Source of the DNA: Companilactobacillus farciminis KCTC 3681 = DSM 20184
Lineage (GTDB): Bacteria > Bacillota > Bacilli > Lactobacillales > Lactobacillaceae
Reading direction: 5' to 3'
Assembly: GCF_002706745.1 (NCBI RefSeq)
Contig: NZ_CP017702.1
Coordinates: 868,001-932,000 of the forward strand
DNA length: 64,000 nt
Shown here: one piece after another, positions 6,742-38,760 of the stretch
How positions within the stretch are numbered: position 1 is the first letter of the stretch
Layout of the letters: each line of letters starts with the position of its first letter
Made by a program: the position numbers and the translations under genes
Notes under the pieces: model-generated
Told to the model about the DNA's origin: nothing
Databases searched by the model: none
Seen by the model: only the letters and a program-made list of their open reading frames with translations

Positions 6742-7923
6742 TTATTTGTCTTTATCATCATTGCTTTTTTTAGATTTTTTATCTAAATTATTTAAAGCAT
6801 CTAAAATTTTATTATCAGATTTATCAGTAGCATGAAGGTAGATATTCATTGTTGTCGATAAGTCCTTATGTCCTAATCGCTTTTGCAAATCCTTAACAGT
6901 TAGATTAGGATTGTTATCAAGTAGCAATGTTCCATGTGTATGTCTGAATCCGTGAAGTGTTACGTTGTGATTTAAATCGATTGCATTATTTATTACTTTT
7001 TGCCATCTTCGTGGTGTATTGATGGAATAGTGATCATCAGTCGTAGTGCTGTAAAAAATATATTGGTTTTCCTGGTCCTTCAGGAAGACCTTTTTTTGTT
7101 GCAGCTTTTTCCAATTTTCTAGGACTGATACTGTTTCAGAATCAAGTATCAGGTTCCTGATATCTTCATTCTTAGTAGATTGAATGCTGTAGCCTTGATT
7201 ATCGATGAATACCAGGGCTTTATTGATCATAATCTTATTACCATTGAGGTCTTTCCACTTTAAAGGAAGGATTTCCTCACGTCTTAAACCAGTAAATGCT
7301 ATGAGTCTGAAGAAAGCATATTTTTCATAGTCGGATTTTCTAGCCATTTTTAAAAATCGTTCTTGTTCTTCAATAGTATAGAAATTTTTTCGATTTCTTT
7401 TCTTTTCAACCTCATCCATTCTGTTGCTACGCTTTGGAATAGATAAACGATCCATTGGATTTCTTGATATGTAATCACGTCTAATAGCTTCTTTAAACAC
7501 GCTATTAGTATAGTTGCATACAATTTTGTAATGAATCAGATTGGCTACCCAATTATCCAGGGCTCTTTGACAGTCATTCACATCAATATCTTTAATATAC
7601 TTTTCGCCAAAAAAGGGGATTATATGAAGTTCAAATACTTTTTTAGTTTTATAAAAAGTTGTTGGCTTAACTGTATTCATGTAACTACTAAGCCAAGCTT
7701 CATATATCTCTTGGAATTTAATATGGCCACCATGGCGGTCAAAGTCATTATTAAGTATTTCCTCCCTCAGATTGATGTAGGCAATCTCCGCTTCATTAGG
7801 TGTATAGAAACCACGTTTGGTAGTTGTGTGCTTGTCGTCGACCCTTATAGCAAATTTATATCTAGTTTGGCCATTCTTTAGAACATAGGGTTTTATTGTT
7901 TTTGAAACTCGCTTTTTAGGCAT
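6742..7923 (-). CDS. int: Tyrosine-recombinase integrase
   Basis: Site-specific recombinase that integrates and excises the prophage at tRNA-Ser. The start is placed at ATG 7923 (MPKKRVSKTIK), preceded by AAAGG nine bases upstream; a longer reading from TTG 7950 lacks a site. About 393 residues: an AP2-like arm-binding N-terminus (1-55), a SAM-like core-binding domain (about 60-165) and the catalytic domain with Arg in TGLRREE, HGFRHT, LGHKD and the nucleophile Tyr in MNIYLHAT. All catalytic residues are present. It faces attL with about 180 bp between, which holds arm-type repeats. Confidence 0.95.
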   Translation of the reverse strand: MPKKRVSKTIKPYVLKNGQTRYKFAIRVDDKHTTTKRGFYTPNEAEIAYINLREEILNNDFDRHGGHIKFQEIYEAWLSSYMNTVKPTTFYKTKKVFELHIIPFFGEKYIKDIDVNDCQRALDNWVANLIHYKIVCNYTNSVFKEAIRRDYISRNPMDRLSIPKRSNRMDEVEKKRNRKNFYTIEEQERFLKMARKSDYEKYAFFRLIAFTGLRREEILPLKWKDLNGNKIMINKALVFIDNQGYSIQSTKNEDIRNLILDSETVSVLENWKKLQQKKVFLKDQENQYIFYSTTTDDHYSINTPRRWQKVINNAIDLNHNVTLHGFRHTHGTLLLDNNPNLTVKDLQKRLGHKDLSTTMNIYLHATDKSDNKILDALNNLDKKSKKSNDDKDK

Positions 7924-8106
7924 AAAATGCAACCTTTCATAAAAACGCAAGAAATCACGTTTTTTTAATTTTATATGTATGTAATTGGTACACTTAAATA
8001 ATTAATTTTCGAGAAAACAGGGGATATTTTGAAAAATAGGGGCACATATGTTCTTTTGACGCTAAAAATAAAAAGCCAAGAAAGGCTTAAATATTTTTCA
8101 AATATC

Positions 8107-33694: not shown

Positions 33695-34012
33695 ATGTTT
33701 TATGAAAAAAATGTTCATGTAGATGAACTCAATTTTTTAGATAGTGAGAAGTATGTAGCATTTTCCACTAAGGTAGATGCTACTACTCCAGGAGTGGTTA
33801 ATGGTGTACTACCTGCTGGCTCAATTGTTCCATCTAACGATGCGAAAGCTCACGCAGTTACTTTAAACGAGGTAGATGTGTCACATGGACCTGAATTAGT
33901 TTCAGGGATCGTTGATGGCTTCATTAATGCCAAACGTTTGCCAGTTGCACCAACTGCCGAAGCAGTGGCGGCGCTAAAACGAATTACATTTTCAAATTTA
34001 GAGGAGGCTTAA
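33695..34012 (+). CDS. Small head protein
   Basis: 105 residues; AGGAGG upstream. Beta-rich (KYVAFSTKVDATTPGVVNGV-LPAGSIVPSNDAKAHAVTLN). Genes of this size directly before major capsid protein E often encode head decoration or stabilisation proteins; assignment by position. Confidence 0.6.
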   Translation: MFYEKNVHVDELNFLDSEKYVAFSTKVDATTPGVVNGVLPAGSIVPSNDAKAHAVTLNEVDVSHGPELVSGIVDGFINAKRLPVAPTAEAVAALKRITFSNLEEA

Positions 34013-34016
34013 TTTA

Positions 34017-35045
34017 ATGCCAGAAATTTTAGATTTATTCAATCAAAGAGATGTGCTTTCATACGTTAATAATCGTCAATATCCTACATATTTAGGTGAT
34101 TCACTATTTCCATCAAGAAAAGTATTAAGTCTAGATGTTGAAATTCTTGAAGATAGATATACAACACCTGTAATAGCTCCAATGTCATCATTCGATAGTG
34201 AAGCACAAATTGGAAGCCGTGAAGCTGATAGACGTTATGCAGAACTAGGCTATATCAAACGTAAGATTCAACTTAAAGAAAAAGATTTGGTAGCACTTAG
34301 AAATCCAAGAAACCCACAAGAACAACAATACTTAACTCAATTGGTTTACAACGACACCGACCATATGGTAGAAGGTGTGCAAGCTCGTGTTGAATTAATG
34401 CGTATGCAATTACTTGCCAACGGTGTTGTTTTACCTGATGATGCTGATTCTAGCTGGAAGATTGATTACGGCTTACCTAAGGAACATCAAGTAACTGTTA
34501 CTAAGTCATGGGATGACCCATCAAGTGATCCAATTTCAGATATTAAAGCTTGGGTTAATACTTTGGATATCGTGCCAACTAGAGCTTTGACATCAAGAAA
34601 AGTGCTCCAAGCTTTGGAAGAAAATAGCTCAATCAAAGCACTATTTAAGAGCTTGGGTGTAATTCCATCTGATGGATCATTAAACCAAATTATGCAAAGC
34701 CTTGGATTACCCGTTATTGTTACTTATGACAGAAAGTACCGTGCACAAAGCGCAACAGGATCATATACTAAAGAACGATTCTTCCCAGAAGACAAATTTG
34801 TCATGTTTGATGATAATACTTTGGGTGAAACACTTTATGGACCAACTCCTGAAGAAAGCCGTCTTATGTCAGGAAACAGTAACGACATGATGGTTGGGAA
34901 TATCTTTGCCACAATGTATGAAGAAGGACATGATCCTGTGGGTACATGGACAAAGGCAGCTGCTACATCATTGCCAACTCTTGCTAGTCCTGATGAATTG
35001 TTCCAAGCACAAGTTCTATTATCTGGATCTACAAAGTCAAAATAG
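34017..35045 (+). CDS. Major capsid protein (gpE-like)
   Basis: 342 residues. Phage capsid E-type signature: RDVLSYVNNRQYPTYLGDSL-FPSRKVLSLDVEILEDRY, AQIGSREADRRYAELGYIKR, KDLVALRNPRNPQEQQYLTQ, later FFPEDKFVMFDDNTLGETLY. The 3' end carries AAAA (35039-35042) before TAG, a 6-nt spacer and a 7-bp hairpin (35049-35069). A -1 slip would therefore add a C-terminal tag (see 35039-35146). Confidence 0.92.
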   Translation: MPEILDLFNQRDVLSYVNNRQYPTYLGDSLFPSRKVLSLDVEILEDRYTTPVIAPMSSFDSEAQIGSREADRRYAELGYIKRKIQLKEKDLVALRNPRNPQEQQYLTQLVYNDTDHMVEGVQARVELMRMQLLANGVVLPDDADSSWKIDYGLPKEHQVTVTKSWDDPSSDPISDIKAWVNTLDIVPTRALTSRKVLQALEENSSIKALFKSLGVIPSDGSLNQIMQSLGLPVIVTYDRKYRAQSATGSYTKERFFPEDKFVMFDDNTLGETLYGPTPEESRLMSGNSNDMMVGNIFATMYEEGHDPVGTWTKAAATSLPTLASPDELFQAQVLLSGSTKSK

Positions 35046-35146
35046 ATCCGCCATCAAGTTCGGATGGCGATAAAACTAGTCCGGATAAACCAACTAACGT
35101 GAAGTCGGTAGCTACTACAGATGGTGCCATTATTTCAGCTGAGTAG
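35039..35146 (+). other. Probable -1 frameshift site and capsid C-terminal extension
   Basis: Zero-frame codons AAG TCA AAA TAG. The AAA can slip back one base on AAAA (35039-35042), giving ATA GAT CCG... and 34 further residues, with KPTNVKSVATTDGAIISAE at the end, to TAG 35144. CGCCATC/GATGGCG (35049-35055/35063-35069) forms the stimulatory stem 6 nt downstream; loop TTCGG could pair with CCGGA (35081-35085) as a pseudoknot. Capsid frameshifting is known in Lactobacillus phage A2 and Listeria phage PSA. Confidence 0.7.
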
Positions 35147-35157
35147 GGGGTGATTTA

Positions 35158-35514
35158 ATGGCTGATGAAGTTAAAATTGAAGATTCAATCCTTAAAGATT
35201 TCAAAACTTTAAAGCATATCAAGAATGATGAAATGGACGATATCTTTAAAATATATATCAATCAAGCTATGCAAGAAGTTGAATTGTATATTGGACAAGA
35301 TACCCTACCTGACGTTTTAAAAGGTATCATCACTCAAATGGCTGAAGCCAAGTTTACTAAAGCTGGTTCAGAAGGTACGGCATCTTCTAGTGAAGAGGGA
35401 TTATCTTATTCATTCAATGAGAATGATTTGAAGCCATTCTTCCCGGTACTTAATAGATATATTGATAATCTAAGAGGTAGCGGTGACCGTGGAAGGATAG
35501 TGACGTTCGATTGA
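35158..35514 (+). CDS. Head-tail connector protein (gp6/gp15-like)
   Basis: 118 residues; AGGGGGTGATTTA before the ATG. N-terminal helices DSILKDFKTLKHIKNDEMDD, KIYINQAMQEVELYIG fit the adaptor family that docks under the portal. First of four small head-completion genes with overlapping ends. Confidence 0.75.
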   Translation: MADEVKIEDSILKDFKTLKHIKNDEMDDIFKIYINQAMQEVELYIGQDTLPDVLKGIITQMAEAKFTKAGSEGTASSSEEGLSYSFNENDLKPFFPVLNRYIDNLRGSGDRGRIVTFD

Positions 35515-36786: not shown

Positions 36787-37575
36787 ATGGTAGATACAGC
36801 AGTATCCAACAAGTTTAAAGCTGAAGTTCGTGGCCGTGATGCCGATAACATTATTTATCTTTACAAACGTATCAAGCACGAACCACTAACAAATAAGATT
36901 CATATTTTAGGACTCCAGGGTGCCACATCAGGAACTAATACACGTACATTACAATCTACAGCAACTAAGAGGGCCAATATTAAAGGTGTCGGCTCAATCA
37001 ACCAACAACGTACTGTAGATGTAATCTTTTCTGCTCCGGAAAAGAACAAGAAAGATTTGTATTGGGACTTATATGCAGCCTGGGAAAAGGGTGAATTAAT
37101 TGGTCTATGGAGAATGGATCTAAACACAATGCACGGTACTAAGCCGCATCGTAAGATTCAAGCACAATTCTCACAAAGTTTTGTTCCCAACCTTCCTAAC
37201 ACAGAAGCATTGGGTGGAACAATGACATCCAATCTCCAATTCGAAGTCAATGGTATGGAACGTGCAATCAATTCAGATGAAAATGCATTCGAGCTTGATG
37301 AAGAAGATCTTGATGATGGTATTTTGGATGACCTAGCCAAGTTCTATAACTTCTCACATGGTACTGATTTGGGTGTTGATGACAATGGTGACTTCGTTGA
37401 TAACACTGTTGACGATGACACCATTGAAGTACAAGACACAACTACTGGTGAGGACGTAATGGGCCCAGCTTATAAGCCTGTTGACGATGATGCAGGCAGT
37501 GAAAAAGCTCCAGAAGAACCGCAAAATGTTCAATCTAAGGCAACCGGGACAGGTGCAGATGTTTCATCTAGCTAA
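36787..37575 (+). CDS. Major tail protein
   Basis: 262 residues; AAAGAGG before the ATG. Tail-tube fold in the first about 165 residues (FKAEVRGRDADNIIYLYKRI, TRTLQSTATKRANIKGVGSI, RTVDVIFSAPEKNKKDLYWD, LYAAWEKGELIGLWRMDLN). An acidic linker follows, then a terminal tag EPQNVQSKATGTGADVSSS related to the tags of the frameshifted capsid and the next gene. Confidence 0.88.
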   Translation: MVDTAVSNKFKAEVRGRDADNIIYLYKRIKHEPLTNKIHILGLQGATSGTNTRTLQSTATKRANIKGVGSINQQRTVDVIFSAPEKNKKDLYWDLYAAWEKGELIGLWRMDLNTMHGTKPHRKIQAQFSQSFVPNLPNTEALGGTMTSNLQFEVNGMERAINSDENAFELDEEDLDDGILDDLAKFYNFSHGTDLGVDDNGDFVDNTVDDDTIEVQDTTTGEDVMGPAYKPVDDDAGSEKAPEEPQNVQSKATGTGADVSSS

Positions 37576-37601: not shown

Positions 37602-37880
37602 ATGGCAGACAGAACTAATCAAACAGAAATTATTTACGACAAGACTGGCAAAAAAGTTGTTGAAGGAACTAAAGGCGACCTTTCTACAGCAATCGCTGGC
37701 CTAACCGGTGGTACTACTGTTGCTGACGGTGATTACAAGATTTCTTTTAAAGATGCAACAACCGGACTTGAATCAGAAAAAGTAGACGTTCCAGGATTCA
37801 CAGTTGAAAAAGCTCCAGACAAGCCAGCAGATGTGAAAGCAGACGCAACTAGTGACGGGGCAAATGTCTCAGCTGAATAG
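37602..37880 (+). CDS. Small virion-type protein with shared C-terminal tag
   Basis: 92 residues; AAAGGAAG upstream. Beta-rich body (TEIIYDKTGKKVVEGTKGDL, ADGDYKISFKDATTGLESEK) and C-terminus KPADVKADATSDGANVSAE. Position between tail tube and tail chaperone, and the tag, suggest a tail-tube decoration or Ig-like accessory protein. The 71 bases after it hold no gene. Confidence 0.55.
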   Translation: MADRTNQTEIIYDKTGKKVVEGTKGDLSTAIAGLTGGTTVADGDYKISFKDATTGLESEKVDVPGFTVEKAPDKPADVKADATSDGANVSAE

Positions 37881-37951
37881 CTAATTTAAAAGCATTCTCA
37901 CTTTCTTGAGTGGTGGCGGTTGGAATCAAATTCATTTTTAGGAGATTTAAA

Positions 37952-38416
37952 ATGCTAACTCTAAAAATCAAAGATACGGAAGTTGAACCAACATATAATT
38001 ATCGACTTTATAAAAATATTGCCGGTGACGATAAAGATAAACGAAAAGAAAACTTTTACAGCTTTTTAGATGGTCTTTTTAGCGATGACTCTATTACAAT
38101 TATTAATTTTTTTAAAGCAGTGGCTGGAAAGGACTTGTCTGAAGATGAAGTTGTTGATCAACTAGACGAAAATGGTCTATTTGATGATGTCCATAAAACT
38201 ACTGATGAAATTATTACGGGCTTAGCTACATCAGGTTTTTTAAAATCGGAAATCAAAGCTTGGAAGAAATACGGAGATCGTTTACTAGAGAGTATGAAAG
38301 CCAGTTTAAAGCTCAAGTCTATCAAGCAAGAGGACAAAGAAATGACTCAAATTCAAATCAATCAACTCGAAGAGAACAAGAAGAGTATCGAGAGTCGAAT
38401 GGATCTAATCAAGTAA
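37952..38416 (+). CDS. Tail assembly chaperone gpG
   Basis: 154 residues from ATG 37952 (MLTLKIKDTEVEPTYNYRLY), after TAGGAGATTTAAA. Small alpha-helical protein in the gpG position before tape measure. The slippery heptamer T TTA AAG (38305-38311) lies 105 bases before the stop, so a fraction of ribosomes make gpGT. Confidence 0.82.
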   Translation: MLTLKIKDTEVEPTYNYRLYKNIAGDDKDKRKENFYSFLDGLFSDDSITIINFFKAVAGKDLSEDEVVDQLDENGLFDDVHKTTDEIITGLATSGFLKSEIKAWKKYGDRLLESMKASLKLKSIKQEDKEMTQIQINQLEENKKSIESRMDLIK

Positions 38417-38760
38417 ATAACTTTGATTTAGATGAGCAGATTACTAGAGCAAGAAGAATAATTGGAATTACCAATATTGATGATTTTTGGAAGCTCACTC
38501 CTAATGAATTTGATGACCTGTGTAGAGGTGCCTTACTAGCTCAATACGACAATTTAACTAATCAGCGTGTATCTAATTCAATGGTTCGGCCAGTTGGTCT
38601 AATTGATGATATTCAAGGTCAAAGCCAGCAAATAGATACAGTATTGAGTCAAATTAAAGATTATGCGGAGAAGTTTGGCAAAGAATCCGACGATTCCGAA
38701 AGAAAGCAGATGGATGCAAAGGCATTCTACAAATTGGTTATGCAAAGGGGGCGAGAATAG
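37952..38760 (+). CDS. Tail assembly chaperone gpGT (-1 frameshift product)
   Basis: After AGT TTA AAG at 38303-38311 a -1 slip enters the frame AQVYQARGQRNDSNSNQSTR... and runs to TAG 38758, adding the T domain with LDEQITRARRIIGITNIDDF and WKLTPNEFDDLCRGALLAQY. The G/GT pair coats the tape measure during tail assembly. The downstream frame's only ATG (38260) lies upstream of the slip site with no ribosome site, supporting frameshifting. Confidence 0.85.
38305..38311 (+). promoter_or_regulatory. Programmed -1 slippery heptamer T TTA AAG
   Basis: Matches X XXY YYZ exactly in the gpG frame, and joins it to the gpT frame. Confidence 0.85.

Follow-up and report, generated by a model that had tools for sequence, protein, structure and literature searches.

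Frameshifts that extend phage capsid proteins have been summarised for A2, A118, A500, PSA, T3 and T7 (PMC5009743), in a source that views Ig-like domains as landing in or out of frame by chance. In Lactobacillus phage A2, a -1 shift ends both the major capsid and the major tail gene, and part of the product is extended at its C-terminus (PMC5009743, PMC7260188). Comparison of the sequences gives A2 the same layout as the capsid gene described here, from a prophage of Companilactobacillus farciminis. The two differ: in A2 the slip site C_CCA_AAA lies one codon ahead of the stop and the extension is an Ig-like domain of almost 90 residues, whereas the prophage has the tetramer site G_UCA_AAA_UAG, an extension of 34 residues and a capsid protein of another family (Phage_cap_E). 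In the records of the A2 relatives J-1 and PL-1, the major capsid protein is annotated in a large and a small form. Phage BH1 is 95.5% identical to A2 over the capsid-extension region, and published LC-MS data on phage proteins include peptides of its Ig-like ORF7 (PMC6950654).

Listeria phages A118 and A500 are also described as shifting by -1 in their capsid gene (PMC5009743). Like the shift proposed for the prophage, theirs lies at the stop codon (GGGAAAC TAA, with an ORF annotated as HeH/LEM in the -1 frame), and they differ from the prophage in having a canonical heptamer, a HeH payload, and another capsid family. Listeria phage PSA, too, extends its capsid protein by recoding (annotated as ribosomal slippage), with an extension that reads as HeH-like. 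A2 and PSA had been cited as precedents in an earlier interpretation made from the letters of this DNA (the sequence-only reading); both do extend their capsid proteins by frameshifting, but the PSA shift is +1 rather than -1, on a proline codon and with a pseudoknot (PMC5009743). In phage SPP1, a frameshift places a fibronectin type III domain on about one quarter of the tail subunits (gp17.1*), where it is dispensable (PMC8718954). SPP1 has a whole FN3 domain on the tail, whereas the prophage would have an fn3-like first hairpin only, on the head. The capsid family of the prophage, with a -1 tag at the stop, also occurs in Enterococcus phage phiEf11 and in Lactobacillus phages iLp84 and PLE3; their records show no frameshift there, and those of iLp84 and phiEf11 terminate the capsid protein at the zero-frame stop. 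The phiEf11 site is UCA_AAA_AAA_UAG; downstream, phiEf11 and iLp84 have hairpins in which GCCCC pairs with GGGGC.

We propose that some ribosomes slip by -1 at the stop codon of the prophage capsid gene, adding a C-terminal tag and yielding a second, longer capsid protein. On comparative sequence evidence this is very probable, and the programmed -1 frameshift put forward by the sequence-only reading is supported as the best reading of the locus. Capsid frameshifting is already known; its occurrence in the Phage_cap_E family and at a GTCAAAATAR site (an A_AAA tetramer with a hairpin) looks new. The literature that we found describes phage capsid and tail frameshift extensions for single phages, and a search covering titles and the starts of abstracts, with most subscription journals outside it, returned no description of a GTCAAAATAR site or of the shared tag.

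Results

The capsid gene belongs to a prophage region of the 64-kb window (the whole stretch of DNA analysed), with an integrase at 6742-7950. It lies at 34017..35045 (+ strand) and encodes a zero-frame product of 342 residues that ends at TAG. This product is a Phage_cap_E protein by its match to PF03864 (E=1.2e-46; 159.7 bits against a cut-off of 22.9; profile positions 3-329 of 329) and also matches phrog_29, major head protein. Upstream, a head protein gene (phrog_909, E=8.6e-26) occupies 33695..34012 (+); the next gene after the capsid gene, at 35158..35514 (+), encodes a head-tail connector (PF05135) and lies 112 nt from the zero-frame stop and 11 nt from the -1 stop.

The -1 frame extension starts at ATA (35042-44) and spans 35042..35146 (+), that is 34 residues (IDPPSSSDGDKTSPDKPTNVKSVATTDGAIISAE) and a TAG stop at 35144-35146. 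At its C-terminus is the tag PTNVKSVATTDGAIISAE (35090..35143, +), which scores 49.3 bits on an 18-column and 42.5 bits on a 17-column profile. The same tag closes, in frame, a 92-residue protein encoded at 37602..37880 (+; phrog_341, E=6e-12), the match being strong (BLOSUM62 sum 59, self 91), and a weaker in-frame copy (BLOSUM62 sum 41; profile score 17.8) closes the major tail protein at 36787..37575 (+; phrog_238, E=1.5e-11). A 34-residue extension ending in a tag shared with two other proteins had been claimed before, and the claim is borne out. The tail-protein tag is clearer in the relative L104 than in this prophage, and all nine homologues of the 92-residue protein have, by reading, a tag-like end. 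The extension itself has no Pfam match at E<=0.1; it is not a complete Ig-like domain of the A2 type, nor does it match the full fn3 profile, and a tblastn search against phages with the extension alone (35 residues) gave no match.

Could the extension be a separate small gene with its own start? We give this little credence. A -1-frame start codon does stand ahead of the tag in two of 32 tagged contexts (L039 and L312; collected loci carry L numbers), with none in the other 30, but in this prophage the -1 frame opens at 34997 and offers no ATG, GTG or TTG before the tag. Among the ORFs listed for the region none is in the -1 frame; those that overlap it are one in the +1 frame and one of 33 codons on the minus strand.

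The capsid ORF ends in TCA AAA TAG (35037-35045), with the AAAA at 35039-35042, and the proposed shift site, G UCA AAA UAG, occupies 35036..35045 (+). A tRNA-Lys on A_AAA could re-pair with a cognate codon, moving from AAA at 35040-42 to AAA at 35039-41. GUCAAAA differs from the canonical X_XXZ_ZZN heptamer and fits the Z_ZZN tetramer alone, which is also accepted as a frameshift motif (PMC4066793). In E. coli, with a pseudoknot, A_AAA was the weakest among six tetramers clearly above background (PMC4066793); hence slipping at this site may be influenced by the fixed context and by having a stop codon in the A site.

A putative stimulatory hairpin of 7 bp with a 7-nt loop follows at 35049..35069 (+), its arms being CGCCATC (35049-35055) and GATGGCG (35063-35069). 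The spacer is 6 nt when counted from AAAA, TAG included, and 3 nt when counted from TAG, which puts the structure within the 5-8 nt expected after a shift site. The AAAA, TAG, spacer and stem of the sequence-only reading are thus all present, in the sequence and in the fold. Taken by itself, the prophage hairpin has only a modest folding advantage over shuffled sequences (z -1.77, with 10 of 200 shuffles doing as well); the case is made by comparison. In a gap-free alignment of 11 hairpins, which follow head-protein genes and belong to slip sites of five kinds (the gene before the L124 hairpin being a phrog_247 major head protein), 98.7% of cells are paired and three of the seven pairs are altered on both sides, in 5 cells. 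Among 500 shuffles, none equalled the alignment in pairing or in covariation score, 11 did in double-changed pairs and 15 in pair types, and slid versions gave 21-80% pairing. Most of the aligned sequences were picked for having a hairpin there (L087 and L124 fit the exact pattern CGCCATCN7GATGGCG), so that the pairing percentage is biased and the double changes are the better evidence. That pattern alone is too common in viral contigs (at least 120 stretches) to be informative; in the collected loci it has 252 matches on both strands, 27 of them just after an ORF stop with an open shifted frame, and those 27 are mostly unrelated by reading.

A possible pseudoknot (TTCGG with CCGGA) had also been suggested, and we find no support for it: TTCGG would take up a base that already belongs to the hairpin, the first of the 3' stem arm, and chance alone should give about 2.9 matches of 4 bp between the loop and the sequence downstream. 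L038 and L039 each have some 4-bp loop match by eye, differently placed.

Transcriptional slippage, which would yield a shifted message in place of ribosomal frameshifting, is quite improbable here. Long A runs could support polymerase slippage, and it is conceivable at the phiEf11-type site with its seven A residues; the prophage site, however, holds only AAAA, and the covarying hairpin is explained by a ribosomal signal and is unneeded for slippage by a polymerase.

Among 36 genomes of the same genus (its own included), four have this capsid gene, and all four have TCAAAATAG and the -1 tag, with two of the capsids only 65 and 67% identical to that of the prophage. At a Companilactobacillus halodurans locus, the capsid is 99% identical. 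Prophages L103 and L104 repeat the tagged trio of capsid, tail protein and 92-residue protein, the tail-protein tag of L103 being weak, as in this prophage. The L103 tail protein is 99% identical to that of this prophage and its capsid 65% identical, which suggests separate histories of the capsid and tail genes, with the tag retained.

We surveyed 100 loci of capsid relatives, giving 84 distinct capsid ends. After the stop, the tag is in the -1 frame in nine, in the +1 frame in one and in the zero frame in none; five of the nine have GTCAAAATAR and four the phiEf11-type TCAAAAAAATAG. The other 74 lack such a tag after the stop in any frame, and the tag is therefore dispensable to the capsid family; untagged ends L040, L085, L087 and L091 have, by reading, other -1 extensions. 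A distant capsid relative (L090, around 2300) has a strong +1-frame tag match after GGC TAA. UAG readthrough can occur in bacteria, and extension of the capsid protein by zero-frame readthrough would be an alternative, but the readthrough product, IRHQVRMAIKLVRINQLT, lacks the tag and no zero-frame tag follows the stop in these ends, making it the least probable of the alternatives.

The frameshift reading also holds that the -1 frame is truly coding. Against L038, the extension read in the -1 frame has pS 0.516 and pN 0.191 (Fisher p=9e-4 on rounded counts), and the same bases read in the zero frame give the reverse (pS 0.213, pN 0.278). There is little difference against L039 (pS 0.457, pN 0.348) or between L038 and L039 (0.416, 0.403), a small gap that may reflect saturation or relaxed constraint. 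Protein-level selection on the downstream frame is clear for the L038 pair, where the coding claim holds well, and weak for the two L039 pairs.

These data bear on whether the tag was formerly in frame and was put out of it by a recent mutation, the extension being a relic. The frame does change: phiEf11 (L094) and L104 have tail genes that carry the tag in frame, and in the L021 tail gene it lies out of frame. We nevertheless regard a relic as very unlikely: slip site, hairpin and -1 tag are common to capsid genes that are 65-67% identical, -1 tags also occur in phages of other genera, and synonymous substitutions dominate against L038. Relatives with the tag in frame had been named by the sequence-only reading as a finding that would speak against it; within the last 60 zero-frame residues, an in-frame tag was found in none of the 84 distinct capsid ends.

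The site is not confined to this capsid family. Phages iLp84 (L092) and Latilactobacillus phage TMW 1.591 P1 (L101) have an identical stop region, TCAAAATAACAGCCCC, both with the tag in -1; the L101 capsid gene is of another family and was found via the 92-residue protein, independently of the slip site. The available text of PMC10688831, on phage TMW 1.591 P1, has no occurrence of SDS-PAGE, frameshift or mass spectrometry. The broader pattern TCAAAATARNAGCCCC (which becomes TCAAAATAACAGCCCC when N is set to C and R to A) occurs in 109 stretches of viral contigs. Over all collected loci, it has 107 distinct contexts, with the tag in -1 in 28 and in +1 or the zero frame in none; 31 of the 107 lie at the end of an ORF of 100 aa or longer, and of these 31 the tag follows in 26. 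Totals vary with slightly different duplicate rules: 107 (28 tagged), 105 (27 tagged) and, once those close to the end of a contig are left out, 101 (25 tagged). TCAAAATAACAGCCCC has 24 distinct contexts, 20 of them tagged in -1, and all 18 that end an ORF of at least 100 aa are tagged. When the leading T is replaced (VCAAAATAACAGCCCC), 34 stretches give 19 distinct contexts, none ending such an ORF and none tagged. The profile for these main counts held 13 tags, some taken from matches of the same pattern; a control profile of 7 tags found before the pattern search, cut at 12 bits, gives the same counts (20/24, 0/19, 27/105).

The tagged contexts derive from 11 gene groups, and the counts are accordingly not independent. 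By BLASTP, the cassette ORFs together with the prophage-type sites form 11 groups plus one truncated ORF, seven of head and four of tail genes. Ten scanned representatives comprise head genes of phrog 840, 422 and 544 and of phrog 10 (three groups), and tail genes of phrog 238, 820, 88 and 158; the eleventh group is the capsid family of the prophage itself. Two phages (L256 and L280) each have two TCAAAATAACAGCCCC cassettes, on a head gene and a tail gene, with clearly different tags. Among the matches listed for TCAAAATAGANNCGCC in viral contigs, five of 96 distinct contexts lie where an ORF of 100 aa or longer ends; L388 and L400 have all 7 pairs and a payload, and the other three do not. 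Among those listed for AAAAATARAAGCCCC, two of 110 contexts are tagged, both phiEf11-type.

The base before TCA, left unspecified in the search pattern, is G in 27/27 tagged versus 18/78 untagged contexts (25/25 versus 17/76 in the other count), the frequency of third-position G in the tagged ORFs being 14.5%. Seven prophage-type sites (L001, L002, L038, L039, L369, L372 and L373) likewise have G; the phiEf11-type site, which has a run of seven A, has T instead. Another explanation of the invariant G is that the cassettes share descent, against which counts the variety of the preceding bases (AAG, TTG, GCG, GAG, CAG, GTG and others). Folding downstream of the site has a median z of -2.29 in tagged versus -0.86 in untagged contexts (p=0.0015), and of 0.07 upstream of it; six of 25 tagged contexts have no folding signal (z above -0.6).

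Four kinds of payload stand behind GTCAAAATAR-type sites: the fn3-like half-hairpin tag, HeH-like segments, Ig/Big_2, and fn3-like domains. The payloads of L040, L085, L087, L091 and L124 were called HeH- or Big_2-like by reading their translations. The extensions of L373 (Ish1 E=3.9e-4, HeH E=0.0045) and L369 (HeH E=0.025) are below the Pfam cut-offs. The L356 payload has a weak fn3 match (21.2 bits, cut-off 25) and aligns with the iLp84 tag over 18 residues; as this extension starts like the tag and runs on beyond the tag's end, the tag resembles the opening two strands of an fn3-like domain.

In L260 (4846-5370, minus strand), a tail-protein -1 extension has the tag, a domain like the 92-residue protein, and Big_2 (E=1.5e-13, above the Pfam cut-off) in a row. 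Pairwise, the extension domains of L260 (E=1e-11) and L305 (E=3e-9) match the 92-residue protein, and both follow the tag. Such fused forms are the main hint that the tag and the Ig-like protein may act together. The Enterococcus prophage tail gene of L021 (8500-9120) has the tag in -1 after GGGAAAG TAG and that of phiEf11 (L094:6400-6640) has it in frame; judged by their sequences, the two are a natural pair, frameshifted versus fused. A head gene (phrog_544) of Staphylococcus phage 187 (L102:3780-3930) ends in CCC TCG TAA, resembling the PSA-type +1 site, and is followed by a segment that reads as tag-like in +1.

Discussion

How might the two capsid proteins arise? Most ribosomes would halt at UAG and release the 342-residue protein. 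A minority would be held by the hairpin 6 nt downstream as the stop codon enters the A site, and would slip one base back on A_AAA, where tRNA-Lys re-pairs perfectly; we infer this slip, its rate, and its location in the P site rather than the A site. Slipped ribosomes would then read ATA GAT CCG and onward, adding the 34 residues, and the virion would have two capsid forms, with the tag presumably displayed on the surface of some subunits. Our analysis itself shows that the site is conserved, that the -1 frame is under selection when compared with one relative, and that the hairpin covaries.

Since this tag also occurs, in frame, on the tail protein and on the small Ig-like protein, its most likely role is one shared at the virion surface, either weak binding to the host surface or docking of a common accessory. 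Going further, we tentatively suggest, as a possibility that we would not yet favour, that GTCAAAATAR with its hairpin is a portable phage recoding cassette with its own kind of shift site (G_UCA_AAA_UAR, in which the A site holds a stop codon and a fixed G precedes UCA); the cassette would move between head and tail genes and between payloads. Under this view one virion might bear a single short tag in three settings: a minority of its head subunits, its tail subunits, and an accessory Ig-like protein, which the tag may keep attached to the particle.

The findings have some practical reach. A short exact signature, TCAAAATAACAGCCCC, now singles out tagged structural genes, and since it separates 20/24 tagged contexts from 0/19, such extensions can be found in genomes where they are not annotated. 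The invariant G before UCA, at a site with a weak tetramer, poses a question about decoding, and the layout offers a natural way to show a short peptide on part of a capsid.

Two other places in the same genome may be noted. In the window, at 37910-38760, a tail chaperone gene (phrog_183) ahead of the tape measure gene is overlapped by a -1-frame ORF (38260-38760), which we take to be the usual gpG-gpGT frameshift layout. Elsewhere (G000:C1:992330; L373:316-1670), a second capsid gene (PF05065, phrog_10) bears GTCAAAATAG and a hairpin of 7 bp, and its -1 extension of 55 residues is weakly similar to HeH/Ish1; L369 and L372 from the same genus resemble it.
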